From NCBI RefSeq assembly GCF_012999535.1, contig NZ_JABBWV010000010.1, forward strand, positions 124,001 through 188,000: a DNA stretch of 64,000 nucleotides. The letters run 5' to 3'. Made by a program: the position numbers and the translations under genes. The notes under the pieces are model-generated. The model worked only from the letters and a program-made list of their open reading frames with translations, was not told the origin of the DNA and did no database searches. The stretch is from Microbispora sp. H11081. GTDB taxonomy: Bacteria > Actinomycetota > Actinomycetes > Streptosporangiales > Streptosporangiaceae. Below are positions 7,451 through 34,112 of this stretch, piece by piece (position 1 is the first letter of the stretch; the number at the start of each line of letters is the position of its first letter).

Positions 7451-10400
7451 GTGCGAGTCGGATTGCTCGGGCCGTTCGAGGTCCGGAACAGCGATGGCGC
7501 CGTGGTGGAGGTTCCCGGGGTCCGGCTGCGCGCACTGCTCGCGGCGCTCGCCCTCGAACCCGGCCGGATCGTCACTCGCGCCAGGCTGGTGGACTGGATC
7601 TGGGGGCAGCGGCCGCCTGCGGACGAAGTGAACGCGCTGCAGGCGTTGGTCTCCAGACTGCGCAGAGTGCTGCCGGACGGCGTGATCCAGGCGGACTCCG
7701 GCGGCTATCGGCTGGCCGTGGCTCCCGATGCCGTGGACGCGTGCCGGTTCGAGCGGCTGGTCGGCCAGGCCCGCGCCGCCGAGCCCGCCGCGCGGGCCGA
7801 TCTGCTGCGCTCGGCCCTGGCGTTGTGGCGCGGCACGGCCATGGCGGACATCGCGCTACGTGACAGTGACGCGTTCGACGCCGCCGTCGCGCGCCTGGAC
7901 GAACTCCACGTCACCGCGCTCGGGGATCGGGTGGACGCGGACATCCGCCTCGGCCGCGGCTTCGAGCTGGTCTCCGAGCTGACCGAGCTGGTCGCCGCGC
8001 ATCCGCTGCGTGAGGGGTTCGTGGCCGCCCTGATGCGGGCGCTCGCCGAAGCGGGGCGTACGGCCGAGGCGTTGACCCTCTACCAGCGGACGCGCGAGCG
8101 GCTCGCCGATGAGCTGGGCACCGATCCGTCGGCCGAGCTCTCCGCGCTGCACACCGCGTTGCTGCGCGGCGAGCTGGGCGAGCGGGCGGAGAACGGCAGG
8201 ACGAACCTGCGCGCCGAGCTGACGAGTTTCGTCGGCAAGGACGACGACATCTCCGCGGTCGCCGGTCTCGCCACCACACACCGGCTGGTCACCTTGATAG
8301 GGGCGGGTGGCTCCGGCAAGACGCGGCTGGCCACCGAGACCGCGCGGGCGATGCTCGGCGAGCTACCGGACGGCGCGTGGCTGGTCGAGCTGGCCTCGGT
8401 TCCGGCGGGCGGTGAACCGGCGAAGGCCGCCCTCACCTCGATCGGCCTGCGTGACCAGGCGCTGCTCGGCGCCGCGCGAGGCGGGGAGCCGATGGATCAG
8501 CTCATCGCCGCGGTCCGGGAGCGCGCGATCCTGCTGATCCTGGACAACTGCGAGCACGTGATCGAGGAGGCCGCGGTCTTCGCCGATCGGCTCCTGGGCG
8601 AGTGCCGGAGGCTGCGGATCCTCGCCACGAGCAGGGAACCTCTCGGCATCACCGGAGAGGTGCTCTGGCAGGTCGAGCCGCTCGCACTGCCCCCGAAGGA
8701 AGCCGACGCCTCCGAGATCGGGTCCTCGCCCGCCGTACGGCTGCTGCGGGACCGCGCGGGCCTGGTCCGCAAGGACATCGGCTCCGACGCGCCCACCTTG
8801 TCGGCCATGGCCCGGATCTGCCGGGCGCTCGACGGGATCCCGCTGGCGATCGAACTGGCCGCGGCGCGGTTGCGCACCATGTCCGTCGATCAGCTGGCAC
8901 GCCGGCTCGACGACCGGTTCCACCTCTTGAGCAGCGGAAGCCGTACGGCGCTCCCCCGGCACAAGACGCTGCGCGCGGTCGTCGACTGGAGCTGGGATCT
9001 GCTGACCGACGCCGAACGCCGCGTGCTGCGGCGGCTCTCGGTGTTCTCAGGCGGGGCGAGCCTGGAGGCGGCAGAACGGGTCTGCGGGGACGAGGCGTCC
9101 GCCGGGGAGCGGGTGCTCGACGTGCTGACCGCGTTGATCGAGAAATCGCTGCTGCTCACCGACTGCGTGGGCACGCCGCGCTACCGGATGCTCGACACCA
9201 TCAGGGAGTACGCGGCGGACCGGCTCGCCGAAGCCGGGGAGACCGAGCGGGCGCGCCGGGCGCACCTCGCCTACTTCGCCGAACTGGCCGAGACGGCCGA
9301 TCCGTACCTGCGCCGGGCCGAGCAGCTGGAATGGCTGGCCAGGCTCGATGCCGAGCACGACAACATCGGCGCGGCCCTGCGCGGGGCGATCGCCGAGGGC
9401 TGGGCCCAGGAGGCGATGCGGCTGGCCGGGGCCGCCGGCTGGTACTGGTTCCTCAGCGGGCACAGGGCCGAGGGCACCGAGCTGAGCATCGCGGCGGCCT
9501 CGATGGACGGCGAAGTGCCCGACGAGGTGCGGGCGATGGCCTACCTCATGGTGACGATGTTCCTGACCTCCGGGGTCGGCGGCGACCAGTATCAGGCGCG
9601 GGAGTGGATCCACGAGGCGCACCGGCTCGCCCAGCGCAGCGGGTATCGCCACCCGCTGCTCGGGTTCGTCGGGGTGCTGGAGTCGATGCTGCGCGGCCCG
9701 GAGGAGTTCCTCCCGGCGTTCGAGCCGCTCATCGCCGACGACGATCCGTGGGTGCGCGCGCAGGCCAGGCTCGCTCGCGGCCGCCTGCGGCTCACGCTCG
9801 GCGGCGACGAGACCGACGTGGACGCCGACGCCGAGATCGCCCTCGCCGAGTTCCGCACGCTGGGTGAGCGGATGGGCATCTCGCTGGCGCTGACCTTCCT
9901 GGCCGATCGGCTCGCCATGCGCGGCGAGCCGGCACGCGCGTGTGAGCACCTCGAAGAGGCGATCGTGGCGCTGACCGAGGTGGGCGGGACCGAGGACGTG
10001 GTCGGCCTGCTCGCGCGGCAGGCCCAGCTCTACTGGCTGCTCGGCGACGAGCGGTCCAGCGCTCGCGCCATGGAGGAGGCGCGGCGGTGCGCAGGCGGCA
10101 TCTCCTGGCCGGACTCGCGTGCCGAACTGGCGCTCGCGCAGGCGCACCTGGCGCGCTGGCGCGGCGAGCCGGACCAGGCGCACGAGCACCTGGCGACGGT
10201 GCGCACGGTGCTGAACGACGCGGAAAGGGGCTACTCCGTCAATGCCGCGATCATGGACATGTACGGCTACCTCACCGAGGACCTCGACGAGGCCCATGCG
10301 TATCGGGCCGAGGCGCTCCGCGCGGTCATGAAGTATCGGCATCCGCCGGCGATCGCCGAGGTGCTGATCGGGATCGCGGATCTCGCGCTGCGCCGGGGAG

Positions 10401-10594
10401 ACCACGAGCAGGCGGTGCGGCTGCTCGGGGCGAGCGACGGCGTGCGCGGCACGCCGAACCAGTCGCACCCGGACGTCTCCAGAATCGCCGCGGACGCGCG
10501 GGAGCGCCTCGGTGAACCCGCGTTCACCGAGGCGATCCGTGACGGCCGGGGGCGGGACTGGCGCGAGCTGGCCGAGATCACGCTCGCTTGTTGA
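7451..10594 (+). CDS. SARP/AfsR-type transcriptional regulator with NB-ARC ATPase and TPR region
   Basis: This 1047-residue protein starts at GTG 7451. Residues 1-90 form the OmpR-like winged helix of SARP proteins (MRVGLLGPFEV start). The bacterial transcriptional activation domain spans about 95-240 (ending TDPSAELSALHTALL). The NB-ARC ATPase begins near 265, with a Walker A GAGGSGKTRLA at about 281-291 and LLILDNCEHV as Walker B. Helical repeats fill the C-terminus. Such large regulators activate specialised-metabolism or transport genes. It ends with a 17-nt convergent overlap with the ABC permease gene, so transcription of one could oppose the other. The targets are unknown. Confidence 0.93.
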   Translation: MRVGLLGPFEVRNSDGAVVEVPGVRLRALLAALALEPGRIVTRARLVDWIWGQRPPADEVNALQALVSRLRRVLPDGVIQADSGGYRLAVAPDAVDACRFERLVGQARAAEPAARADLLRSALALWRGTAMADIALRDSDAFDAAVARLDELHVTALGDRVDADIRLGRGFELVSELTELVAAHPLREGFVAALMRALAEAGRTAEALTLYQRTRERLADELGTDPSAELSALHTALLRGELGERAENGRTNLRAELTSFVGKDDDISAVAGLATTHRLVTLIGAGGSGKTRLATETARAMLGELPDGAWLVELASVPAGGEPAKAALTSIGLRDQALLGAARGGEPMDQLIAAVRERAILLILDNCEHVIEEAAVFADRLLGECRRLRILATSREPLGITGEVLWQVEPLALPPKEADASEIGSSPAVRLLRDRAGLVRKDIGSDAPTLSAMARICRALDGIPLAIELAAARLRTMSVDQLARRLDDRFHLLSSGSRTALPRHKTLRAVVDWSWDLLTDAERRVLRRLSVFSGGASLEAAERVCGDEASAGERVLDVLTALIEKSLLLTDCVGTPRYRMLDTIREYAADRLAEAGETERARRAHLAYFAELAETADPYLRRAEQLEWLARLDAEHDNIGAALRGAIAEGWAQEAMRLAGAAGWYWFLSGHRAEGTELSIAAASMDGEVPDEVRAMAYLMVTMFLTSGVGGDQYQAREWIHEAHRLAQRSGYRHPLLGFVGVLESMLRGPEEFLPAFEPLIADDDPWVRAQARLARGRLRLTLGGDETDVDADAEIALAEFRTLGERMGISLALTFLADRLAMRGEPARACEHLEEAIVALTEVGGTEDVVGLLARQAQLYWLLGDERSSARAMEEARRCAGGISWPDSRAELALAQAHLARWRGEPDQAHEHLATVRTVLNDAERGYSVNAAIMDMYGYLTEDLDEAHAYRAEALRAVMKYRHPPAIAEVLIGIADLALRRGDHEQAVRLLGASDGVRGTPNQSHPDVSRIAADARERLGEPAFTEAIRDGRGRDWRELAEITLAC

Positions 10595-11327
10595 ACGACG
10601 CGCGCGCCCACAGGTAGCCGATCAACGCCAGTCCCGCGCACCAGGCGATCGCCGCGACGGCCGGGCCCGCCGACGGCGAGCCGGTCAGCAACCCGCGCAG
10701 GGTTTCGATGATCGGGGTGAACGGCTGATACTCGGCGAACTGCCGCGCACCTGGGCCCATCGTCTCGGCCGGCACGAACGCGCTGCTCAAGAAGGGCAGG
10801 AGCATCAGCGGGACGGCGGCGAGGCCCGCGCTCTCCGGCGTCTTCGCCGCGAGGCCGAACGCGACGGTCAGCCAGCCGATCGCCAGCACCGTCAGCATGA
10901 CGACGCCGATCACGCCGAGCCATTCCGCTGGACCCGCCGACGGCCGGAATCCCATCAGGAACGCGACCCCGGTGACGAACGCGATGGCCACCAGGCTCCG
11001 CAGCATGGTGACGATCACGTGCGCGTTCAGCACCGCGGCCCTGGACACGTCCATGACGCGGAGCCGGTCGATGAATCCGGTCGTCATGTCGGAGTTCACC
11101 GAGATCGCGGTGGCGCCGACGCCGTAGCAGATGGTCGTCAGCATCAACCCCGGTGTCGCGTAGTCGGCGTAGTCGACGCCGACGCTGAACGCGTCGCCGA
11201 ACACGTAGACCATCAGGAACATCAGGAAGACCGGCATGACGATGCCGTTGAACAGCGCCACCGGGTTTCGCGTCGTGTGCCGGAGGTTGCGCCGGAGCAT
11301 GGTCCTGGAATCCGCGATGACGTTCAT
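10578..11327 (-). CDS. ABC-2 type exporter permease (DrrB-like)
   Basis: This 249-residue integral-membrane protein has about six transmembrane helices and the ABC-2 pattern: a cytoplasmic N-terminus (RRNLRHTTRNPVALF), a central FLMGFRPSAG loop and a C-terminal re-entrant region (EYQPFTPIIETLRGLLTG) typical of drug-resistance permeases. Its ATG overlaps the stop of the upstream ATPase gene by 4 nt. Together they should form a DrrAB-type exporter for a lipophilic compound. Substrate unknown. Confidence 0.9.
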   Translation of the reverse strand: MNVIADSRTMLRRNLRHTTRNPVALFNGIVMPVFLMFLMVYVFGDAFSVGVDYADYATPGLMLTTICYGVGATAISVNSDMTTGFIDRLRVMDVSRAAVLNAHVIVTMLRSLVAIAFVTGVAFLMGFRPSAGPAEWLGVIGVVMLTVLAIGWLTVAFGLAAKTPESAGLAAVPLMLLPFLSSAFVPAETMGPGARQFAEYQPFTPIIETLRGLLTGSPSAGPAVAAIAWCAGLALIGYLWARASFNKRA

Positions 11328-12268
11328 CGGGCGTCGGCCTCCTTGTTCGCGGTGCCGGTGAGGGCGAGGAAGACGTCGTCCAGGTCCGGGGTGTGCACCG
11401 ACAGCTCCTCGACGTCGACGGAGTGCGCGTCCAGCTCGTCGAGCAGCGCGCGCAGCGACCTCACCCCGCCGTCGCCTGGCACCCGCAAGGTCAGCTCTTC
11501 GTCGTCCCTCGTGGACCCGGGCAGGATCCGTGCCGCGGCGTCGAGCTCGTGCCGGCCGGTGAACCGCAGCCGGACATGGCTGCCGGGCATCCGGCGCTTG
11601 AGCTCGCCGGCGGTGCCCTCCGCGACCAGCCGGCCCTGGTCGAGCACCGCGATGCGGTCGGCGAGCTGGTCGGCCTCCTCCAGATACTGGGTGGTGAGGA
11701 AGACGGTCGTGCCACCGGCGACCAGCTCCCGGATGATCTCCCACATGGTGCGGCGGCTGCGGGGGTCGAGTCCCGTCGTGGGCTCGTCCAGGAAGATGAT
11801 CCGCGGCTCGCCGACCAGCGTCATGGCGAGGTCCAGCTTGCGGCGCATGCCGCCGGAGTAGGTCGCCGCGGGCTTGCTCGCCGCTTCGGCCAGATCGAAC
11901 CGGTCCAGCAGCCGGGCGGCGACTCGCCTGCCCTCCGCCTTGGGCAGGTGCAGGAGATCCGCCATCAGCAGCAGGTTCTCCTCGCCGGTGAGCAGGTCGT
12001 CCACAGAAGCGAACTGCCCGGTGACCCCGATCGCCGCTCGCACCGCCTTGGTGTCCTTCGCCACGTCGTGCCCGGCGACGACCACCGTGCCGGCGTCGGG
12101 GGCCAGCAGCGTGGTCAGCACGTTGACCGTCGTGGTCTTGCCTGAGCCGTTCGGCCCGAGCAGGGCGAAGATCGTGCCGACCCTGACGTCGAGGTCGATG
12201 CCGTCGAGCACGACCTTGTCCTTGTACGCCTTCCGCAGCCCCGAGGCCGCGATCGCTGATCCGTTCAT
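11324..12268 (-). CDS. ABC exporter ATP-binding protein (DrrA-like)
   Basis: This protein has a Walker A GPNGSGKTTT near residue 38, the signature YSGGMRRKLDLA near 140, Walker B IIFLDEPTTGLD and an H-loop region (FLTTQYLEEAD). The extra C-terminal 90 residues with HTPDLDDVFLALTG are typical of the DrrA group. I chose ATG 12268. GTG 12277, three codons earlier, is possible, and neither has a strong ribosome site. It is coupled to the permease by a 4-nt overlap. The exporter stands convergent to the SARP gene, but regulation by it is unproven. Confidence 0.9.
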   Translation of the reverse strand: MNGSAIAASGLRKAYKDKVVLDGIDLDVRVGTIFALLGPNGSGKTTTVNVLTTLLAPDAGTVVVAGHDVAKDTKAVRAAIGVTGQFASVDDLLTGEENLLLMADLLHLPKAEGRRVAARLLDRFDLAEAASKPAATYSGGMRRKLDLAMTLVGEPRIIFLDEPTTGLDPRSRRTMWEIIRELVAGGTTVFLTTQYLEEADQLADRIAVLDQGRLVAEGTAGELKRRMPGSHVRLRFTGRHELDAAARILPGSTRDDEELTLRVPGDGGVRSLRALLDELDAHSVDVEELSVHTPDLDDVFLALTGTANKEADAR

Positions 12269-12342
12269 GGCATTCACGATCGCCGGCCGCTCTGATATCG
12301 GGCCGTCGCCGGCCTGACACGGCCGCTGACGCGCCGGGGAGG

Positions 12343-13275
12343 TCAGGAATCCCGGGTGGCAGAGGTGTCGGCGTGGCCGGCGGCGCCGATCCCCACGTCC
12401 TCGGCCTCACCTCCGTCGTGGCGGCAGGAGCAGCGTCCATCGGGTGAGGACGCTCCGATGTCCGCGGACGCCGGGAGGGCCGCCGCCAGCCGGTCCACCT
12501 TCTCGTTCAGCGCCCTGATCTCGTTCATGACCGCGATGTGCTGCTCCAGCTCCAGCTCCTGGTCCTCCTGCCACCGCTGGGCGTTGACCTCCGCCTCCAT
12601 GGCGGAGACGATCACGCCGATGAGCAGGTTGAGCACGAAGAAGGCCGTGATCACGATAAAGGTGGCGAAGAAGATCCACGCCAGCGGCTCCTTGGCCATC
12701 ACGTCCTCGGCGACCTGCGGCCAGTTCTCCACCGTGAGCACCGTGAACATGGTGAACAGCGAGCGCCCGAGATCTCCGAAGTACTGGGGGGCCGCTTCGC
12801 GGAAGAGCTGTTCGCCGATCACGGACGCCGTGTAGAGCGACAGCAGCAGGAGGACCACGGCCGAGGCCAGTCCGGGCAGCGCGGCGAACAGCGCGGAGAC
12901 GACCCGTCGCATGCCCGGCACCACGGAGATCAGCCGCAGGACGCGCAGGAACCGGAACAGCCGCAGGATCGACAGCGACTCGGAGGCCGGCACGAGGGCC
13001 ACGCTGACGATGACCAGGTCGAACCAGCTCCAGGGGTCGCGGAAGAACGCCTTGCCGTGCGCGACGATCCGCAGGGCGATCTCAACGACGAAGACGGCGA
13101 GGATGACCCGGTCGATCAGGAGGAAGGCCGTGGCGTGACGGTCGGCCAGTTCGTGCGCCGTCTCCAGCCCGAGCGTGACGCCGTTCAGCGTGATGACGGC
13201 GATGACCGCACGTTGGAAGGCCGAGGAGTCGACGAAGACGCGGAGCCGTTCACGATCGAAAACCGGCAAACCCAC
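12343..13275 (-). CDS. Voltage-gated-type ion channel, single six-helix domain
   Basis: This protein of about 310 residues has the six-helix voltage-gated channel layout. S4 (about residues 100-125) has Arg at every third position (LRLFRFLRVLRL). The pore loop reads TVLTVENWPQ, comparable to the TLESW filter of bacterial sodium channels such as NaChBac, with Glu kept but Asn for Ser and a different tail. S6 (NLLIGVIVSAM) is followed by a cytosolic coiled coil (EDQELELEQHI to EKVDRLAAAL) that would hold the tetramer together, then a Cys-containing tail. Start GTG 13275 is the best guess; it lacks a clear ribosome site. Sodium or calcium selectivity cannot be told from sequence. Confidence 0.85.
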   Translation of the reverse strand: MGLPVFDRERLRVFVDSSAFQRAVIAVITLNGVTLGLETAHELADRHATAFLLIDRVILAVFVVEIALRIVAHGKAFFRDPWSWFDLVIVSVALVPASESLSILRLFRFLRVLRLISVVPGMRRVVSALFAALPGLASAVVLLLLSLYTASVIGEQLFREAAPQYFGDLGRSLFTMFTVLTVENWPQVAEDVMAKEPLAWIFFATFIVITAFFVLNLLIGVIVSAMEAEVNAQRWQEDQELELEQHIAVMNEIRALNEKVDRLAAALPASADIGASSPDGRCSCRHDGGEAEDVGIGAAGHADTSATRDS

Positions 13276-26666: not shown

Positions 26667-28514
26667 ATGACCCTCCGGTTCCGGCTGCTCGGCCCGGTCG
26701 AGGTCAGGAGGAACGACGCGCCGGTCCCGCTCGGCTCGCCCAAGCAGCGCGCCCTGCTGACCGCGCTGCTGCTCGAACCGAACCGGGTCGTGTCGATCGA
26801 CCGGCTGGTCGCGGCCATGTGGGACGAGGAGCCGCCCCGCTCGGCCGTCGCCAACGTCCGCACCTACGTCAACCGGCTGCGGCGGGCGCTCGGGGACGGT
26901 GACCGGCTGACGGCCCGGCCACCTGGCTACCTCCTCACCGTACGGGACGGTGAACTCGATGTGGCCGGGTTCGCCGACGCGCTGCGGCAGGGCAGGCAGG
27001 AGCTGTCGGCCGGGCGGCCCGAGGCGGCGCTGCGGCACCTGTCGGCGGCGCTCACCTGCTGGCGCGGCGCGCCGGCCGAGGACGTGCCGAGGACGGCGGC
27101 GCTCGGCCCGCGCCTCGACGCCCTCGCCGAGCAGCGCTGCCTGGCCCTGGAGGCGCGGGCCGAGGCCCGTCTCCTGCTGGGAGAGCACGCCGACGCGGTG
27201 CCGGAACTGCGCGAGACGGTCGCCGCCCATCCCACCAGGGAGCGGCTGTGGGGCGCCCTCATGCTCGCGTTGTACCGCACCGGGGACTCCGCGGCGGCGC
27301 TGGCCGCCTACGGGCGGGCGCGCGCGTTCCTCGCGGCGGAACTCGGCGTCGAACCCGGCCCGGAGCTGGCCGAGCTGCACCGGCGCGTACTCAACCGCGA
27401 CCCCGCGCTCGTGACCGCGGCCCTCGCCCGCGACCCGGCCCGCCCGGCGCCCGTACGCAAGACGGCGCCGGCCGCGGGTCCCGGATGCCTCGTGGGCCGG
27501 GACGCGGAGCTGAAGGAGCTCGTCGCCGCGATCACCGCCTCTCCCCTGCGGCCCGTCGCCGTGCACGGCCCCGCTGGAGTGGGGAAGTCGGCCCTGGCCC
27601 TGCATGCCGTCCGGGCGGCGGCGCCGGACTTCCCCGGCGGCGTGCTCCACGTCGACCTGCGCTCCCTTCCCAGGCCCGGCGCGTACGAGACGCTGGCGCG
27701 GTTGCTGACCCTGCTGGGAGTGCCGGGCGGCCGGATCGCTCCGGACCTCGACGACGCGGTGCTCCAGCTCAGGGCCGCCACGGACGCCGAGCGCGTGCTG
27801 GTCCTCCTCGACAACGCGACCGGCGAGGGGCAACTGCGTCCTGTCGTCGGCGCCTGCCCCGGCTGGCAGTTCGTGGTCACCAGCAGGACGGTACTCGCGG
27901 CGCTCGACGACGTCGTCCACGTGCCGCTCGATCCCCTCTCCGACGACGCGGCGTACGAACTGCTGTCCGGGCTCTGCGGCCGGGCCAGGGTCGACCCAGA
28001 ACAGGTGAGGAGAATCGCCGGGCTCTGCGACAACCTGCCTCTCGCGCTGCGGATAGCGGGCAAGCGGCTGGCCGTACGGCGGGAGTGGACGCTGGCGGCG
28101 TTCGCCGACATGCTGGCCGACGACGAGCACCGGCTCGACCTGCTGACCTGCGGCGACCTTTCCGTGCGGAGCGCACTCGACCTCGACTACCAGGCCCTGC
28201 TGCGGTGCGGGGGAACGGCGGGCGGCGGCGCGCTCGCCCTGTTCCAGCGCCTCGGCGAGCGCGGCCTGGCCGACTGCCGGTCGGCGCTCGCCGCGGAACT
28301 CCTCGGATGCGACCGGCGTACGGCGTGGGCCGCGCTCGGCGGGCTGGCCGATCTCCGCCTGATGAGGCCGGTGGCCCCCGACCACTACCGGATGAACGAC
28401 CTCACCCGCCTCTACGCCGCGGAAATCGCCAGGAAATCGCCACGGATCCGCCGAGACGAGCACGGACGCGGAGCGCCCCGCCCCAGCCCGAGGCGCTCCG
28501 CCCTGCCCTGCTAG
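26667..28514 (+). CDS. SARP/BTAD regulator with NB-ARC domain, candidate controller of the peptide cluster
   Basis: This 615-residue protein has an OmpR-like winged helix (1-90), a bacterial transcriptional activation domain (95-250, ending LGVEPGPELAELHRRVL) and an NB-ARC ATPase with Walker A GPAGVGKSALA (about 299-309) and VLVLLDNA. Unlike the 7451 SARP it has no long TPR tail. Start ATG 26667 follows GGGGAGG. Its stop is one nucleotide from the stop of the Cys-rich peptide gene on the other strand. SARPs bind 11-bp-spaced direct repeats, and such repeats occur ahead of the export operon. That it controls both peptide and operon is an inference. Confidence 0.92.
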   Translation: MTLRFRLLGPVEVRRNDAPVPLGSPKQRALLTALLLEPNRVVSIDRLVAAMWDEEPPRSAVANVRTYVNRLRRALGDGDRLTARPPGYLLTVRDGELDVAGFADALRQGRQELSAGRPEAALRHLSAALTCWRGAPAEDVPRTAALGPRLDALAEQRCLALEARAEARLLLGEHADAVPELRETVAAHPTRERLWGALMLALYRTGDSAAALAAYGRARAFLAAELGVEPGPELAELHRRVLNRDPALVTAALARDPARPAPVRKTAPAAGPGCLVGRDAELKELVAAITASPLRPVAVHGPAGVGKSALALHAVRAAAPDFPGGVLHVDLRSLPRPGAYETLARLLTLLGVPGGRIAPDLDDAVLQLRAATDAERVLVLLDNATGEGQLRPVVGACPGWQFVVTSRTVLAALDDVVHVPLDPLSDDAAYELLSGLCGRARVDPEQVRRIAGLCDNLPLALRIAGKRLAVRREWTLAAFADMLADDEHRLDLLTCGDLSVRSALDLDYQALLRCGGTAGGGALALFQRLGERGLADCRSALAAELLGCDRRTAWAALGGLADLRLMRPVAPDHYRMNDLTRLYAAEIARKSPRIRRDEHGRGAPRPSPRRSALPC

Positions 28515-28515
28515 G

Positions 28516-28692
28516 TCAGCAGGTGTACTGCCACGGGGTGCAGTAGCCGCTGGGGATGCCCGTCCCGGTGCAGCAGTAGCGGCGGACGCAGTTCCCCGAG
28601 TACTCGTACCAGCAGTTGACGGCCTCCGCGCGGGTGGCCGGGACCAGCCGGGCGACCATCCGGTCCGCCAGCCGCTGAATCGTCCGCGTCAT
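28516..28692 (-). CDS. Six-cysteine secreted peptide precursor (58 aa)
   Basis: A 58-codon gene with a strong AGGAGGA ribosome site 6 nt before ATG 28692. The first 24 residues look like a leader with basic and aliphatic residues (MTRTIQRLADRMVARL) and end AEA, an AxA-type signal peptidase site. The predicted 34-residue product has cysteines at 3, 11, 16, 17, 27 and 34, spaced C-x7-C-x4-CC-x9-C-x6-C, and is rich in Tyr and Trp. The C-C-CC-C-C framework matches inhibitor-cystine-knot peptides such as the conotoxin VI/VII framework, although no homology is claimed. The leader lacks a long hydrophobic core, so export probably uses the adjacent ABC transporter. No activity can be predicted with confidence; a bacteriocin or signalling peptide is plausible. 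Confidence 0.8.
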   Translation of the reverse strand: MTRTIQRLADRMVARLVPATRAEAVNCWYEYSGNCVRRYCCTGTGIPSGYCTPWQYTC

Positions 28693-28729
28693 CTGGTTCC
28701 TCCTAAGCGGGACTCTTCGACGTTCACCG

Positions 28730-28773
28730 ACCTTAGGAACCGCTTCGACGGCCGACGTACCAGTCCGATACAC
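28730..28773 (-). promoter_or_regulatory. Promoter of the Cys-rich peptide gene, shared architecture with the mauE promoter
   Basis: On the minus strand, GTGTATC (28773-28767) is followed 33 nt later by GTTCCTA (from 28740), with TAAGGT (28735-28730) as a possible -10. A start near 28723 would give a 5' leader of about 30 nt carrying the ribosome site. The operon promoter at 32251-32294 has GTGTAGC and GTTCCTA at exactly the same 33-nt distance. About 27 of 46 aligned bases agree, which points to one shared activator, most likely the adjacent SARP. Confidence 0.6.
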
Positions 28774-28799
28774 GTTCTCCTATATCGCGTTCGTCGGGC

Positions 28800-29246
28800 T
28801 CACGCGGTCAGCCGCCGGAGCACGACGCCGGTGACCCTGCTCTCGGGAAGCGGGCCCCACTGGCGGGAGTCGGTGCTCCGCGACGGGTTGTCCCCGAGGA
28901 CGAGCAGCCGCCCCGGCGGCACGCGCGCCTCCCCCAGCGCCTCGAAACCCGGGGGGACCGGGTCACCGGCCAGAGCCGCGGCCCGCTTGATCACCAGGTT
29001 GGCGCCGCCGTCGAGCACCACCCCCTCCCCCGGGCCCACACGGGCGATGACGACGACGTCCCCGCGCCGGACGCGCCGGCCGGCCCGCCCGGGGCGCAAC
29101 GTCCGTACGAGGACCCGGTCGCCGGGCCGCAGGCCGGGCTCCATGCTGTGCCCGTGCACCTCGACGACGCGGAGGGTCCGCCGGACCGCCGTCACGGCGA
29201 CGGCCGGGATCGCCGTCGCGAGGAGGACGAGCAGGACCGGCGTCAC
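28800..29246 (-). CDS. S26-family (type I) signal peptidase of the peptide cluster
   Basis: A 148-residue S26 peptidase. An N-terminal membrane segment (2-20) is followed by the catalytic HGHSMEPGLRPGD with Ser34, the general base Lys87 in LVIKR, and the box LVLGDNPSRSTDSRQWG. It is smaller than the housekeeping LepB enzymes. Its GTG start overlaps the ABC transporter stop by 4 nt. The AEA site at residue 24 of the peptide precursor is a fitting substrate, so it probably removes the leader outside the membrane. Confidence 0.9.
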   Translation of the reverse strand: MTPVLLVLLATAIPAVAVTAVRRTLRVVEVHGHSMEPGLRPGDRVLVRTLRPGRAGRRVRRGDVVVIARVGPGEGVVLDGGANLVIKRAAALAGDPVPPGFEALGEARVPPGRLLVLGDNPSRSTDSRQWGPLPESRVTGVVLRRLTA

Positions 29247-31117
29247 CGTGCCTCCGAGAGCCGGTCGCGCTCGTCCAGGTCCTCCCGCTGCCGGTATCCC
29301 TCCGCCTGCAGGGCGAACAGGTGGGCGTAGATCCCGCCACGCGCCAGCAGCGCGGCGTGCGTGCCCTGCTCGGCGACCTGCCCGCCGTCGAGGACGACGA
29401 TGTGGTCCGCGTCGCGTACGGCGCCGAGCCGGTGGCTGATCAGCACGCTGGTGCGCCCGCGGCGGTGCTCCCTCAGGCCCTGGTGGATCTCGTGCTCCGC
29501 CTCGGCGTCGAGGCCCGAGCTCGGCTCGTCCAGGATCAGCAGGTCCCGCTCACCCCGCAGGTAGGCGCGAGCGAGGGCGAGCCGCTGCCACTGCCCGCCC
29601 GACAGGTGGACGCCCGTCCCTGCGCAGTCGTCCTCCGCGCTGTTCTGGGGCTCGGCGAAGACCCGCGACAGCATGGTGTCGTACCCCCTGGGCAGACCGC
29701 TCACCGTGCCGTGCGCGCCCGCCCGCCGCGCCGCCGCCTCGATCCTGCCCCGGTCGTCCAACGCGGCCAGATCGCCCAGGCCGATGTTCTCGGCCGCGGT
29801 CATGTCGTACTCCATGTAGTCCTGGAACACCGCCCCGATCCGGGAGCGCAGCTCTGCCGGGTCCATCTCCCTGAGGTCGACCCCGTCCCAGAGGATCGAG
29901 CCGCGTACGGGGTCGTACATGCGGCACAGGAGCTTGACCACGGTGCTCTTGCCCGCGCCGTTCCTGCCGACGAACGCCACCGCCGCGCCGTACGGGATGG
30001 TCAGGCTCACCCCGCGCAGGGCCCAGGGGTGGCCGGGCGAGTAGCGGAACCAGACGTCCCGCAGCTCGATCCCCCGGCGCAGCGGGCCGGCCCGCCGTGG
30101 CCGGGCAGGGACCGGCAGATCCGGCCCGGCGTCCAGGACGGCGAGATAGTGGCCGAACAGCAGCACCTGCTGGTGCGCGGTGACGAGTTCGACGACGAGA
30201 CCGCTCACCGCCGCCTGGACTCCGGCGACGGCGGCGACGAACAGGGCCACGTCTCCGACGCTGCCCGTGCCGTTCGCGACGGAGACGAGTACCCACACCA
30301 GGCCGCCACCGGCGGCCAGCGCCGCCGTGGTCCCTGTGATGGCCTGGACGCCGAGCTCGCGCCGGTCGGTGCGGCTCCGTTCGGCGTTCGCGGCCCGCCG
30401 CTGGGCGTTCATGAGCCCGCGCAGGTGCGCTCCGGTGCCGAAGAGCCTCAGCTCCTTGGCCGCCCGCACGTTGACGAGGAGCTCCCCGAAGAAGAACTCA
30501 CGGCGCTCGACCGGGCCGATGCCCCACAGCATCGCGGCCCGCCGCCGCGACAGCCACAGCTCCGCGGCCAGCGAAGGTGCCGCCGCGCCGACCACGAGGA
30601 CGGCCATCCACGGATTGATCGTCACAAGGGAGACGAGGAACCCGGCGCCGGTCAGCACCGTCCTGGCGCCGCCCAGGGCGGCGGAGACCACCATGCCCGG
30701 CGTCGCCCCGCCGTACTGCTGCGCCATCCGGATCCGGTCCAGGAACGCGGGGTCCTCGAACCTGGCGAGACCGACGAACCGCTCGGTGGCCAGGAAGAGA
30801 CGGTCCTGCGCGACGAGGCCGACCCTGCGCCCGCTCTCGTCCCTGACGTACTGGACGACCTGCGGCCCGAGCGCCGTCAGCACCCCGCACCCGGCGAGCG
30901 CCGCGCCCAGAACCGCCGTCGCGCCGGCCTCGGGCCGTCCGCCGCCGACCTCGTCGAGCACCAGCTTGGTGCACCAGGCGATCGTCACCGGCAGGGCGGC
31001 CATGAGCACGCTGAGGAACGCGAAGGCGATCGTCAGGGCCCTGCTCGCCCGCCAGGCCAGGCCGAGAGCGGTGACCACCGCCCGCGCGCCGGCCGGGACC
31101 CTCGGCCGCGCCGTCAC
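29243..31117 (-). CDS. ABC transporter, permease-ATPase fusion, of the peptide cluster
   Basis: This 624-residue half-transporter has a six-helix membrane domain (about residues 10-330) and a C-terminal ATPase with Walker A FVGRNGAGKST, a signature HLSGGQWQRLALARA, Walker B LLILDEPSSGLD, and a Q-loop FQDYMEYD. There is no N-terminal C39 peptidase domain, so leader removal must be separate, consistent with the S26 gene. Its GTG start overlaps the TlpA stop by 4 nt. The likely cargo is the Cys-rich peptide. Confidence 0.92.
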   Translation of the reverse strand: MTARPRVPAGARAVVTALGLAWRASRALTIAFAFLSVLMAALPVTIAWCTKLVLDEVGGGRPEAGATAVLGAALAGCGVLTALGPQVVQYVRDESGRRVGLVAQDRLFLATERFVGLARFEDPAFLDRIRMAQQYGGATPGMVVSAALGGARTVLTGAGFLVSLVTINPWMAVLVVGAAAPSLAAELWLSRRRAAMLWGIGPVERREFFFGELLVNVRAAKELRLFGTGAHLRGLMNAQRRAANAERSRTDRRELGVQAITGTTAALAAGGGLVWVLVSVANGTGSVGDVALFVAAVAGVQAAVSGLVVELVTAHQQVLLFGHYLAVLDAGPDLPVPARPRRAGPLRRGIELRDVWFRYSPGHPWALRGVSLTIPYGAAVAFVGRNGAGKSTVVKLLCRMYDPVRGSILWDGVDLREMDPAELRSRIGAVFQDYMEYDMTAAENIGLGDLAALDDRGRIEAAARRAGAHGTVSGLPRGYDTMLSRVFAEPQNSAEDDCAGTGVHLSGGQWQRLALARAYLRGERDLLILDEPSSGLDAEAEHEIHQGLREHRRGRTSVLISHRLGAVRDADHIVVLDGGQVAEQGTHAALLARGGIYAHLFALQAEGYRQREDLDERDRLSEAR

Positions 31118-31656
31118 GCGTGCACGGGGATCTTGTCGAGGTCCTCCGGCGTGGCCCCGCTGGCGAGGACCCGCCCGTCCGCGGCGACCACGGCGAAGGA
31201 CGGGAAGCCCTTCACCCGCAACGCCTCCGTCAGGCCGGTGCCGTAGTCCTCGATCACCACCAGGGCGACCGGCTCCAGCGTCCGCCGCTGGCCGGCCACC
31301 TCGTCCTCCGTACCGACCAGCACGGCGAGCACGTTGCCGCGTCCGCCGGGGAAGGTGCGTGCGCGCTCGGCGAACTGCGGCAGGCGGTCGTGGCAGGCGG
31401 GGCAGTCGGGCGAGAAGACGCCGACGAGGACCGGCTCGGTCAGCGTCCCGTCGGAGACGTGGACGCCGTCGGTGCTCACCGCCGAGAAGCCGCCGATCGT
31501 CGCCCCTGGCGGGAGCACGATCGGCGGGGACGTCACCGGTCGCGCCGCCAGGATCTCCTGGTGCTCCCGCAACCGCCGGATCACCCCGACCGTCAGCACC
31601 AGGTCGACCAGGCACAGGACGCCGACGCCCAGCACGAGAGCTGTCAGGAACGGCAT
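31114..31656 (-). CDS. TlpA/MauD-like thioredoxin-fold protein of the peptide cluster
   Basis: A 180-residue protein with one N-terminal membrane helix (1-25) and an extracytoplasmic thioredoxin fold with the redox motif SPDC85-PAC88. GGAGG lies 9 nt before ATG 31656. In methylamine utilisation, MauD and MauE act together to form disulfides in the small subunit. The pairing with the MauE-like gene 15 nt upstream suggests a disulfide-forming couple here, probably acting on the six-Cys peptide. This is an inference from gene pairing. Confidence 0.9.
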   Translation of the reverse strand: MPFLTALVLGVGVLCLVDLVLTVGVIRRLREHQEILAARPVTSPPIVLPPGATIGGFSAVSTDGVHVSDGTLTEPVLVGVFSPDCPACHDRLPQFAERARTFPGGRGNVLAVLVGTEDEVAGQRRTLEPVALVVIEDYGTGLTEALRVKGFPSFAVVAADGRVLASGATPEDLDKIPVHA

Positions 31657-31671
31657 GAGGGACCACCTCCG

Positions 31672-32223
31672 TCAGGGTGTACGGGTGAACAGACCGGTGA
31701 TCTCACCGCTCGCGGCCAGCAGGACCGCCGTGGCTCCGGCCGCGAGCGCGACCGCGGCGAGCCCTGCCGGTCCGATGCCCGTCGGCCCGAGACCCGTCGG
31801 CCCGAGACCCGCGAGGACCGCTCCGGCCGCCGTCGCCACGACGAGCACGGCGTTGCGGGCGAGATGAGCAGGGCCCACCGGTGCGGCGGACGCGCCGAAG
31901 CAGCGGCAGGGGACCGGCCGGCCGCGCCGCAGCGCGGCGACGATGGCCGCGGTGAAGGCCGCGAGCAGCCCGAGCGCGACGCAGAAGCCGGCGAGCACCG
32001 TGGGCCCCCAGGCCAGCAGCGGCGCCACGGCGACCTCGGCCGCGACGACGAGCGCCGCGATCGGCTGGGCCCGCCGCGCCGGCAGGCGCGCGAGTGCGCG
32101 AGTGGCCGCCGTGAACTCCTCGTACGCCGCCCGCCCGCGCAGCTTGCCCACGGCGGACATGAGGAAGACGATCCCCGTGAGCAGCCGGCAGAAGGCGTAG
32201 AGATAGGCCACGGGCGTCCTCAT
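31672..32223 (-). CDS. MauE/DoxX-like redox-associated membrane protein
   Basis: A 183-residue protein with four membrane helices. It begins YLYAFCRLLTGIVFLMSAVGKL, with Cys12, and carries the conserved PVPC106-R-C108-FG at the end of helix 3. MauE-type proteins are thought to recycle thioredoxin-like partners by passing electrons to quinones. It is the first gene of the operon and is preceded by a promoter with 11-bp-spaced repeats. No strong ribosome site is seen; a GGGG lies just before ATG 32223. Confidence 0.87.
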   Translation of the reverse strand: MRTPVAYLYAFCRLLTGIVFLMSAVGKLRGRAAYEEFTAATRALARLPARRAQPIAALVVAAEVAVAPLLAWGPTVLAGFCVALGLLAAFTAAIVAALRRGRPVPCRCFGASAAPVGPAHLARNAVLVVATAAGAVLAGLGPTGLGPTGIGPAGLAAVALAAGATAVLLAASGEITGLFTRTP

Positions 32224-32250
32224 CCCCGGTCGGGCGGGCGGTCGCCCTCC

Positions 32251-32294
32251 ACGCTAGGAACCACCGCGGGACACCGGGTACACGACGGCTACAC
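32251..32294 (-). promoter_or_regulatory. SARP-box-like direct repeats and promoter of the mauE-tlpA-ABC-sip operon
   Basis: On the minus strand the heptamers GTGTAGC, GTGTACC and GTCCCGC start at exact 11-nt steps (32294, 32283, 32272). The last is 9 nt before TAGCGT (32256-32251), a possible -10, and transcription would start near 32244, 21 nt before the mauE start. Eleven-nt periodic heptamers just upstream of the -10 are the known SARP operator layout. A 12-bp palindrome ACAGCGCGCTGT overlaps the upstream edge. The first two heptamers match in six of seven bases; the third is weak. Confidence 0.6.
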
Positions 32295-32392: not shown

Positions 32393-32671
32393 TCAGGCCG
32401 TCCAGTCCAGGAACGCCTCACCGGCCGAGACGCCGCCCAGCCACACGCCGACGCCGACGAACGGCACCGCCAGGCCCCAGGCGGAGCGCCTGCGCACGGC
32501 CCATATGGCCACGCCGGCCAGCCCCGCCCACACCACGAGAAGGACGACGATCGCCCAGAGCGGGGCGACCAGGCCGCTCGCCAGGTAGAACGGCAACGTG
32601 CACAGCTGACCGGCGAGTCCCAACCAGCTGACCACCCTGGACACCACCGCCGCCTCCGAACGCGTTCGCAT
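32393..32671 (-). CDS. Small membrane protein of unknown function
   Basis: A 92-residue protein with three hydrophobic segments (SWLGLAGQLCTLPFYLAS, PLWAIVVLLVVWAGLAG, WGLAVPFVGVGVWLGG). No family recognised. It lies beyond the mauE promoter on the same strand, 169 nt upstream of it, and is divergent from the PBP-like gene. It may or may not belong to the peptide cluster. Confidence 0.6.
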   Translation of the reverse strand: MRTRSEAAVVSRVVSWLGLAGQLCTLPFYLASGLVAPLWAIVVLLVVWAGLAGVAIWAVRRRSAWGLAVPFVGVGVWLGGVSAGEAFLDWTA

Positions 32672-32774: not shown

Positions 32775-34112
32775 ATGAAGGCATTCCTGGGCTTCCTGGC
32801 CGTCGCCGGGGTCGGTGCGGTGATCGCGGTTCTCCTGCTGTTGCGGAACGCGCCGGGCGGCGGTGCGGACCGGGCACTCGTGGCCTCGGCCCCCACGACC
32901 ACGGCCTCCGCCTCCCCCGTGGCAGGGAAGAACGTGCTGCTGGATGCCGAGGGCGCCGTCATCGAGGAGTTCTCCGGTGACTGCACCGGCAGCGGACATC
33001 CCTACCTCTGCCGGTATGTCGGAGAGCGGCTTCGCGCCGAGGATCCGCAGTTGCTCTCTCGTGGCGGCCTCACGATCCGGACGACGATCGACCGGCGGGT
33101 CCAGCGAGCTGCGCAGCGGGCCGTCGACGCTTACGTCCACCGCGACGACCCGCAGCTCGCCACACAGGTCGTGATCGTCCCAGGCGAAGGGGCCGTCAAG
33201 GCCATGGTCACCAGCCGTGCTCCCGCCACCGGTCCGGGCTTCTATCAGGGGACGACGGCGATGCCCTACGCCCTGGCCGCCGCGCTCGCCGCCGGTCTGC
33301 GGTACGACGACGGCTTCGCCGTCTCGGACGAATACCGCGCCCGGAGCTACTCGACGTTCAAGACCTGCGCGAACCAGGCCGTCGGGGATCCGGCCGTCAG
33401 CATCTACAACCGGAAGAAGGGCGGTGCCCGGTTCGTCACCCTGCGATCGGGCACCCTGAACGCGATCAACACCTTCTACATGCGGTTACAGCAGAAGGTG
33501 GGCCTGTGCGAGACCGTCGAAACGGCCCGGCGGCTCGGGCTCAGGAGCGTGGACGGAAAGCCGCTTCCTGAGATGGAGACGTTCGCACTGGGCCCCATCG
33601 AGGCCGACCCCGTCTCGGTGGCCAACTCCTACGCGAGCCTCGCCGCCCGCGGTCGCTTCTGCGAGCCGAGGGTGATCACGGAGATCCGCGACGGTTCAGG
33701 CGCCGTACGCGGCTTTCCTGCGCACTGTACGCAGGTCCTGGACGCGGCGGTCGCCGACGCGGTCACGGGAGTGCTGACGGACGTCCTGGCGAACAGCACG
33801 CTCGAAGGCATCGGCCGCGAGGCGGCGGGCATGCCCGGCGACGGCGACATCTTCCGCACCGCCTGGTACGCCGGTTACACGCCCGACCTGGCCTCCGTGG
33901 TCAGTCTCGGTGACCCTCGCGGCCCGAACCGGCACCCGCTGATCGACGTCACCATCGGCGGCCGCCGCTATTCGCACGTGGACGGCACGTCGGTTCCCGG
34001 TCTGATCTGGAAGAAGGCCATGACCGACGCGCTCCGGGGGACGCGGGAGACCCGCTTCACCCGGCCGGACGCCGAGCGCTTCGGCGGCTGCCACGACGCC
34101 TGCCCGCCCTGA
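32775..34112 (+). CDS. Catalytically dead penicillin-binding-protein transpeptidase homologue
   Basis: A 445-residue protein with an N-terminal membrane anchor (3-24) and a transpeptidase fold (LTIRTTIDRRVQRAAQRAV, ADPVSVANSYASLAARGRFC, AWYAGYTPDLASVVSLGDP). All three active-site motifs are lost: SxxK is T160-T-A-M163, SxN is A230-I-N232, and KTG is M353-P-G355. GGAGG six nt before ATG 32775 decides the start over GTG 32748. The reading frame is intact and codon use is normal, so it is a pseudoenzyme, not a decayed gene. It may bind peptidoglycan precursors or act as a scaffold. Confidence 0.85.
   Translation: MKAFLGFLAVAGVGAVIAVLLLLRNAPGGGADRALVASAPTTTASASPVAGKNVLLDAEGAVIEEFSGDCTGSGHPYLCRYVGERLRAEDPQLLSRGGLTIRTTIDRRVQRAAQRAVDAYVHRDDPQLATQVVIVPGEGAVKAMVTSRAPATGPGFYQGTTAMPYALAAALAAGLRYDDGFAVSDEYRARSYSTFKTCANQAVGDPAVSIYNRKKGGARFVTLRSGTLNAINTFYMRLQQKVGLCETVETARRLGLRSVDGKPLPEMETFALGPIEADPVSVANSYASLAARGRFCEPRVITEIRDGSGAVRGFPAHCTQVLDAAVADAVTGVLTDVLANSTLEGIGREAAGMPGDGDIFRTAWYAGYTPDLASVVSLGDPRGPNRHPLIDVTIGGRRYSHVDGTSVPGLIWKKAMTDALRGTRETRFTRPDAERFGGCHDACPP

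Follow-up and report, generated by a model that had tools for sequence, protein, structure and literature searches.

A putative actinomycete class of disulfide-rich peptides with a common leader and clustered export, redox and protease genes, exemplified by a six-cysteine precursor in Microbispora

The window analysed here, a 64,000-nucleotide stretch of Microbispora sp. H11081 within which all positions are numbered, carries on its minus strand a compact gene set around a small cysteine-rich precursor peptide. The precursor, 58 residues with six cysteines, is encoded at 28516..28692 (stop included, ATG at 28692) and is preceded by the Shine-Dalgarno sequence AGGAGG (minus strand, 28699..28704), similar sites being found ahead of its orthologs. 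According to the leader model described below, its first 24 residues (28621..28692) form an amphipathic, class-defining leader that ends in Ala-Glu-Ala (residues 22-24), and the remainder (28519..28620) a predicted mature core of 34 residues with the cysteine order C-C-CC-C-C and the spacing C-7-C-4-CC-9-C-6-C; if cleaved and paired as we infer, the core would contain three disulfides and have a calculated mass of 3926.55 Da ([M+3H]3+ 1309.86), against 3932.60 Da for its reduced form. The genes on this strand follow the order mauE, tlpA, ABC exporter, S26 protease and precursor. The MauE-family membrane protein (31672..32223; PF07291, E 2.2e-27) contains a CxCFG motif with Cys106 and Cys108 and is followed after 15 nucleotides by the gene for a TlpA/MauD-like thioredoxin-fold protein (31114..31656), which features an N-terminal hydrophobic stretch, a CPAC motif at residues 85-88 and Pro152, presumably the cis-proline, and which gave only weak Redoxin and AhpC-TSA matches. 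This gene overlaps by 4 nucleotides that of a permease/ATPase-type ABC exporter (29243..31117; ABC_tran, E 3.5e-28), in which a Pfam scan found no C39 peptidase domain, and the exporter gene in turn overlaps by 4 nucleotides that of an S26 signal-peptidase-like protease (28800..29246; PF10502, E 1.5e-20) with an N-terminal hydrophobic stretch and a Ser34/Lys87 dyad, 107 nucleotides ahead of the precursor gene start. On the plus strand, a SARP/BTAD gene (about 26667..28514), likely the regulator of the cluster, converges on the precursor gene and ends 1 nucleotide from its end. An earlier note on this DNA had described the precursor with its strong ribosome site, AxA site and six-cysteine framework, the upstream same-strand operon and the convergent SARP gene, all of which are indeed present, and its positions are correct.

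Precursor conservation within the genus is far beyond chance. The peptide was detected at E <= 3.4e-14 in 14 of 15 Microbispora genomes, that of Microbispora sp. H11081 counted, and the single genome without a match (G012) is an assembly of about 810 contigs and 92% completeness. The TlpA, ABC, S26 and peptide genes occur together in all 13 ortholog loci that were read (L024-L036), and a full-length MauE gene and the SARP gene are each found in 12 of the 13: in L026 only a 25-residue tail of MauE is matched, and in L029, where SARP is unmatched, the stretch stops at a contig end. The survival of the peptide gene beside the same gene set, whose failure the earlier note had named among the outcomes that would refute its reading, is thus borne out in the genus as well as in the wider class described below, and so is the view that precursor, redox, ABC and S26 genes form one unit, the gene set being kept in the orthologs and in both sets of loci examined. 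A codon comparison of 13 precursors (that of the window and those of 12 orthologs; L036, the most divergent, was excluded) further reveals that the leader is nearly frozen in Microbispora while the core varies: 10 of 24 leader codons differ in DNA and only 3 of 24 in amino acid, with 223 synonymous versus 36 non-synonymous differences over all pairs, whereas amino-acid changes occur in 18 of the 33 core columns.

The genus search also returned 48 weaker peptide matches (E 6e-7 to 1), 14 of which, chosen by low E value or by a match starting near residue 1, were fetched as long stretches (L037-L043, L046-L052). All four partner genes are present at 11 of these 14 loci, often in other orders and on other strands, and the precursors found there have the leader in common and mostly a different cysteine pattern; in L043 the ABC gene does not lie within the fetched stretch, and L052 is a chance match. 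Among these loci, L046 holds an orphan class precursor (8058-8240), with no processing gene matched in its 16.5-kb stretch. Elsewhere, tandem precursor genes with different cores share one processing set (L033, 8043-8506; L209, 2925-3417), and in L026 a block of about 4.5 kb (8300-12800), whose open reading frames (ORFs) resemble a response regulator and a histidine kinase by eye, lies between precursor and S26 gene. In the window itself, a penicillin-binding-protein-like transpeptidase gene (32775-34112, plus strand) diverges from mauE and is matched in 8 of the 13 ortholog loci, in pieces in L028; it is probably a mere neighbour.

The system is far wider than first noted. A search of the genome collection with the ABC protein yielded 429 relatives among candidate stretches, and the best 80 of these 429, all from actinomycetes, made up a first set of loci; a second set of 40 further loci was picked from ABC matches in 200 family genomes and is partly dependent on the first, with at least three repeated loci (L169, L176, L202). 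Counting partner genes within 6 kb of the ABC gene, we found TlpA in 76, S26 in 77, MauE in 64 (likewise 64 with a separate MauE profile) and SARP in 38 of the 80 first-set loci, TlpA and S26 together in 74 and all of MauE, TlpA and S26 in 62. The corresponding second-set counts are 37/40 for TlpA, 34/40 for S26, 30/40 for MauE, 33/40 for TlpA plus S26 and 27/40 for all three. To find the precursors we used a leader model that was started from ten Microbispora leaders and then iterated on ORFs with a Shine-Dalgarno sequence near the ABC gene. With a threshold of more than 15 bits and at least three cysteines, it identified 80 precursors, which are spread over 75 first-set loci, the exceptions among the 80 being L086 (at a contig end), L105, L109, L111 and L123. 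For the second set the model was frozen and neither cysteines, distance nor a ribosome site was required, and still 35 of the 40 loci gave a match above 15 bits, of which that in L208 is devoid of cysteines and false, leaving 34 real ones. The window precursor, 551 nucleotides from the ABC gene, scores 43.6 bits, compared with 7.5 bits for the best other ORF of the window and 7.7 bits for the best of 20120 shuffled ORFs; as false, cysteine-less matches in real loci exceed these controls, reaching 14.7 bits in L102 and 15.8 bits in L208, scores near 15 bits are unsafe alone. A looser look by eye at seven loci pointed to likely precursors in L109, L111 and L208.

The leader of the class combines a D-R element, an R-L/V-x-P element and an A-x-A region in a weakly hydrophobic sequence, after which the hypervariable core begins. 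The A-x-A site that the note had pointed out in the window recurs in 75 of the 80 first-set precursors, a count that is partly built in, because the leader model includes those positions. We detected the ABC subfamily in at least 82 of the 200 family genomes, two genomes holding at least six copies (the number scored), and an ABC alignment matched at least 2 of 396 phylum genomes, Microbispora sp. H11081 among them; these counts are lower bounds because six candidates per genome were scored in the family and three in the phylum. A precursor alignment, in an insensitive search, matched 6 of the 396 phylum genomes, and the matches other than Microbispora sp. H11081 and G037 are weak and probably due to chance; in G037, which the precursor profile identified without use of the ABC, an ABC match lies 1.3 kb from the precursor match. 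Relatives are also encoded in 24 plasmid records (21 from Streptomyces, many of them S. clavuligerus, two from Embleya and one from Nonomuraea). All four precursors in three annotated plasmid regions, including two six-cysteine precursors on S. clavuligerus pSCL4, which carries the gene set, are labelled as hypothetical proteins, and the class is therefore easily overlooked. In the ABC tree the families cluster yet are mixed, with 19 label changes versus a minimum of 6, which may reflect paralogs or transfer. Three ABC relatives (L123, L179, L193) have neither MauE, TlpA or S26 matches nor a precursor; L123 is nested inside the class in the ABC tree and may represent a remnant or a re-used exporter. 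The window system and its relatives appear to constitute a large class of small peptides of soil-dwelling actinomycetes, probably exported, in which a common leader and common processing genes accompany ever-changing cysteine-rich cores.

The most telling property of these cores is the parity of their cysteine counts. Cysteine numbers are even in 77 of the 80 first-set precursors, and in the second set 44 of 45 matches above 15 bits have a cysteine-rich core, all 44 of them even. Four second-set cores are identical to first-set ones, leaving 40, and removal of cores more than 0.6 alike across both sets yielded 72 non-redundant cores, 69 of which have an even number of cysteines over 23 patterns and a range of 4-12 cysteines (binomial p ~1e-17, overstated because the cores are treated as independent). 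Twelve other residues, by comparison, are even in 30-46 of the 72 cores. The 24-residue leaders of the 80 first-set precursors are all free of cysteine, and the window peptide, with six cysteines in the core and none in the leader, fits the rule. Among other small ORFs with a Shine-Dalgarno sequence in the first-set loci, 103 of 149 also have an even count, because 85 of them have exactly four cysteines; when only sequences with at least five are considered, 18 of 64 control ORFs are even versus 66 of 69 cores. Pairing of the cysteines in full disulfides is the best explanation for even counts over so many patterns, and the disulfide-rich nature of the peptide, already proposed in the note, is strengthened accordingly. 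The cysteine content of the cores (20% of residues) and their CxC and CC motifs would also suit the binding of a metal or cofactor; TlpA and MauE would then keep the peptide reduced, and it would leave the cell as a metallophore or metal carrier. We regard such a role as very unlikely, considering the evenness across the 23 patterns and the lack of a prominent metal-handling family among the recurrent neighbours in a crude gene clustering; metal sites in fours are further disfavoured because 33 of the 72 cores have 6 or 10 cysteines, as against 36 with 4, 8 or 12.

The C-C-CC-C-C order of the window core, also that of many knottins, had led to the suggestion of a knottin framework, and this part of the earlier description stands only as far as the order itself. 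The loops of the core measure 7-4-0-9-6, and the nine residues of loop 4 compare with a usual knottin limit of about 1-4 residues. Searches of PDB sequences returned no knottin: the core alone had no match, and the precursor profile gave four weak trefoil-type sequences (E 0.11-0.34), which we do not take as kinship. Considering also the 22 other cysteine patterns among the relatives, an inhibitor-cystine-knot fold of the window core is doubtful, and, as judged from these patterns, it is not a property of the whole class. Neither Pfam nor NCBIfam offers a suitable model for the precursors, 29 members giving one weak trefoil and one unrelated match, each at E 0.025, and PHROGs contained no match for the peptide. 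Assignment to established bacterial peptide classes was likewise rejected: no lanthipeptide dehydratase or cyclase occurs among the 14 window ORFs covered by the Pfam scan or the recurrent neighbours at the loci, the only places in which one was sought, and the double-glycine site and C39 peptidase domain of double-glycine bacteriocins are missing from the window system.

Alignments of the first-set copies with the window proteins reveal no variation at the key residues of the processing proteins. Cys106 and Cys108 of MauE are invariant in 65 of 65 sequences, Cys85, Cys88 and Pro152 of TlpA in 77 of 77, and Ser34 and Lys87 of S26 in 78 of 78, and the catalytic cysteine pairs and Ser/Lys dyad are intact in the window proteins. 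The leaders are amphipathic (hydrophobic moment of 0.65 in the window) and mostly without a Sec-like hydrophobic core, their best 12-residue Kyte-Doolittle means having a median of 0.89, a 90th percentile of 1.49 and a maximum of 1.88. These properties bear on the possibility that the peptide is exported by Sec, with S26 as its signal peptidase and the ABC protein carrying other cargo. The A-x-A that precedes the core has the form of a signal peptidase site and a few leaders are moderately hydrophobic; however, in 95 of 108 distinct leaders the longest run lacking R, K, D, E, H, N and Q spans at most eight residues, and the ABC gene is linked to the precursor as tightly as the protease gene in the loci found by the peptide and in G037, which alone count here because both locus sets were chosen by ABC. 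Export by Sec therefore seems highly improbable.

From the observed gene set and its conservation, the catalytic residues, the even-cysteine rule and the leader/core contrast we infer a pathway, its product and role, in which the precursor's charged, amphipathic and non-Sec-like leader would be read by the dedicated ABC exporter and the peptide moved across the membrane. Outside, the membrane-tethered TlpA-like protein would pair the cysteines into disulfides, with MauE or a different membrane oxidase restoring its oxidised state, after which the membrane-anchored S26 protease would cut behind A-x-A and free the core (34 residues and three disulfides in the window) for an antagonistic or signalling role. 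With the leader kept while the core diversifies, one machine would serve many products. We consider it probable that the window system is one of a broad group in actinomycetes that make ribosomal peptides rich in disulfides and secrete them, by way of ABC export, TlpA/MauE pairing and S26 cleavage.

Several observations weigh against this pathway as drawn. Three of the 72 non-redundant cores have odd counts (7, 9 and 11 cysteines), and four loci that keep MauE and TlpA (L105, L172, L177, L178) revealed no precursor even in the looser look by eye. No TlpA gene was detected in 4 of 80 first-set and 3 of 40 second-set loci, and no MauE gene in 26 of the 120 loci overall. When L086 (contig end) and L123, L179 and L193 (no partner set) are set aside, 22 MauE-less clusters remain (L060 and L169 probably represent the same locus), and none of the 22, seven of them read gene by gene, has a CxCFG membrane protein nearby as a replacement. 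Moreover, TlpA-like proteins are often reductases, so that the direction of electron flow is not readable from sequence, and the nearest solved relatives of the TlpA protein are generic thioredoxins at weak E values (0.001-0.045). The reductase role common among TlpA relatives, these weak thioredoxin matches and the 22 MauE-less clusters would fit a disulfide-rich product in which TlpA and MauE act as a reductase or isomerase proof-reading wrong pairs, and general enzymes or air oxidise the cysteines. On the other hand, MauE matches occur elsewhere in the genome in 8 of 8 genomes tested, seven of which hold a MauE-less cluster, and no Pfam match for VKOR was found in Microbispora sp. H11081 (3 of 14 genomes gave a match in the control), and MauE/TlpA is on that account a plausible candidate for the main oxidant. 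We therefore treat the proof-reading alternative as unlikely but worth keeping in mind, and retain pairing by TlpA/MauE as the preferred pathway. The proposal that redox, ABC and S26 proteins work on the peptide is accordingly backed by the gene set and its conservation, in a form where MauE need not always be nearby and the order of steps stays conjectural.

Gene clustering at the loci adds little to this core machinery. Among 1241 genes from 111 loci, predicted with a simple rule based on third-position GC, no recurrent family, including any modification enzyme or immunity gene, was found beyond ABC, MauE, TlpA, S26, SARP (41 loci) and the precursors, the next family occurring in 8 loci. The note's statement that no other modification enzyme is present holds in this crude clustering, in which gene prediction overlooked some of the known cluster genes as well as everything shorter than 60 residues, so that a small immunity gene could escape it. 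If recurrent immunity is indeed absent, the peptides may be aimed at organisms not closely related to the producer, or self-protection may come from the exporter. Upstream of mauE in the window, a 92-residue membrane-like ORF (32393-32671, minus strand), matched in 1 of the 13 ortholog loci (L034, 87%), may encode an immunity protein peculiar to the strain or may lie there by chance.

The closest precedent comes from decRiPPter, whose authors report three mauE-containing candidate families from Streptomyces, one also with mauD and all with precursors of at least eight cysteines, and suggest a role for mauE in precursor modification (PMC7794033). As in the window, mauE and a cysteine-rich precursor share a cluster; the window core with its six cysteines falls short of the eight, whereas other class members have 8-12. 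The part of that text considered presents machine-learning candidates and mentions neither a common leader, an S26/ABC core set, an even-cysteine rule nor a spread beyond Streptomyces, and it is speculative for MauE and leaves MauD unclear, so that the statement that MauE and MauD together form disulfides, made as known in the earlier note, cannot be upheld from it. By description rather than by precursor sequence, these families likely belong to the same class. Sublancin and glycocin F, from what is given in the portion of PMC12457901 considered, resemble it in being exported cysteine-rich peptides with dedicated thiol-disulfide oxidoreductases (BdbAB, GccCD) and an ABC transporter; their systems include a glycosyltransferase and a bifunctional protease-transporter, in contrast to the window, with its S26 protease, ABC protein without a C39 match and MauE plus TlpA, where the scanned genes include no sugar enzyme. 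The mau operon of methylamine dehydrogenase has in common with the window the MauE family and a TlpA/MauD-like partner, whereas here the partners of MauE and TlpA are precursor, ABC and S26 genes; the methylamine dehydrogenase light chain had no match in the Microbispora sp. H11081 genome, in a search whose control matched nowhere either. The 'Hymenoptera AMP' genes of pSCL4, judged by their description in the available text of PMC6406012, seem to be other genes, and the parts of PMC5702194 and PMC4514598 at hand contain nothing on this peptide class. We did not find the breadth of the class, its common leader or the even-cysteine rule in print, decRiPPter being the only prior art recognised among open PMC papers, most of them judged by their listing.

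Highly disulfide-bonded peptide families are generally thought to be a speciality of animals and plants, and conotoxin-type venom gene families combine a conserved leader, a hypervariable core and even cysteine frameworks. The class described here, for which no homology with conotoxins is claimed, differs in being bacterial, in having its own processing genes clustered with the precursor and in its amphipathic leader rather than a Sec signal. By analogy, it points to a bacterial equivalent of the disulfide peptides known from venoms, and we lean, with less assurance than for the class itself, toward a single conserved leader served by a four-protein machine for export, oxidation and release of a hypervariable core with 4-12 cysteines. 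If true, one leader with many natural cores would provide a sequence signature by which many new stable peptides could be recognised, the gene set might represent a general secretion-oxidation-release machine, and MauE/TlpA pairs outside methylamine dehydrogenase would gain a clear candidate substrate.

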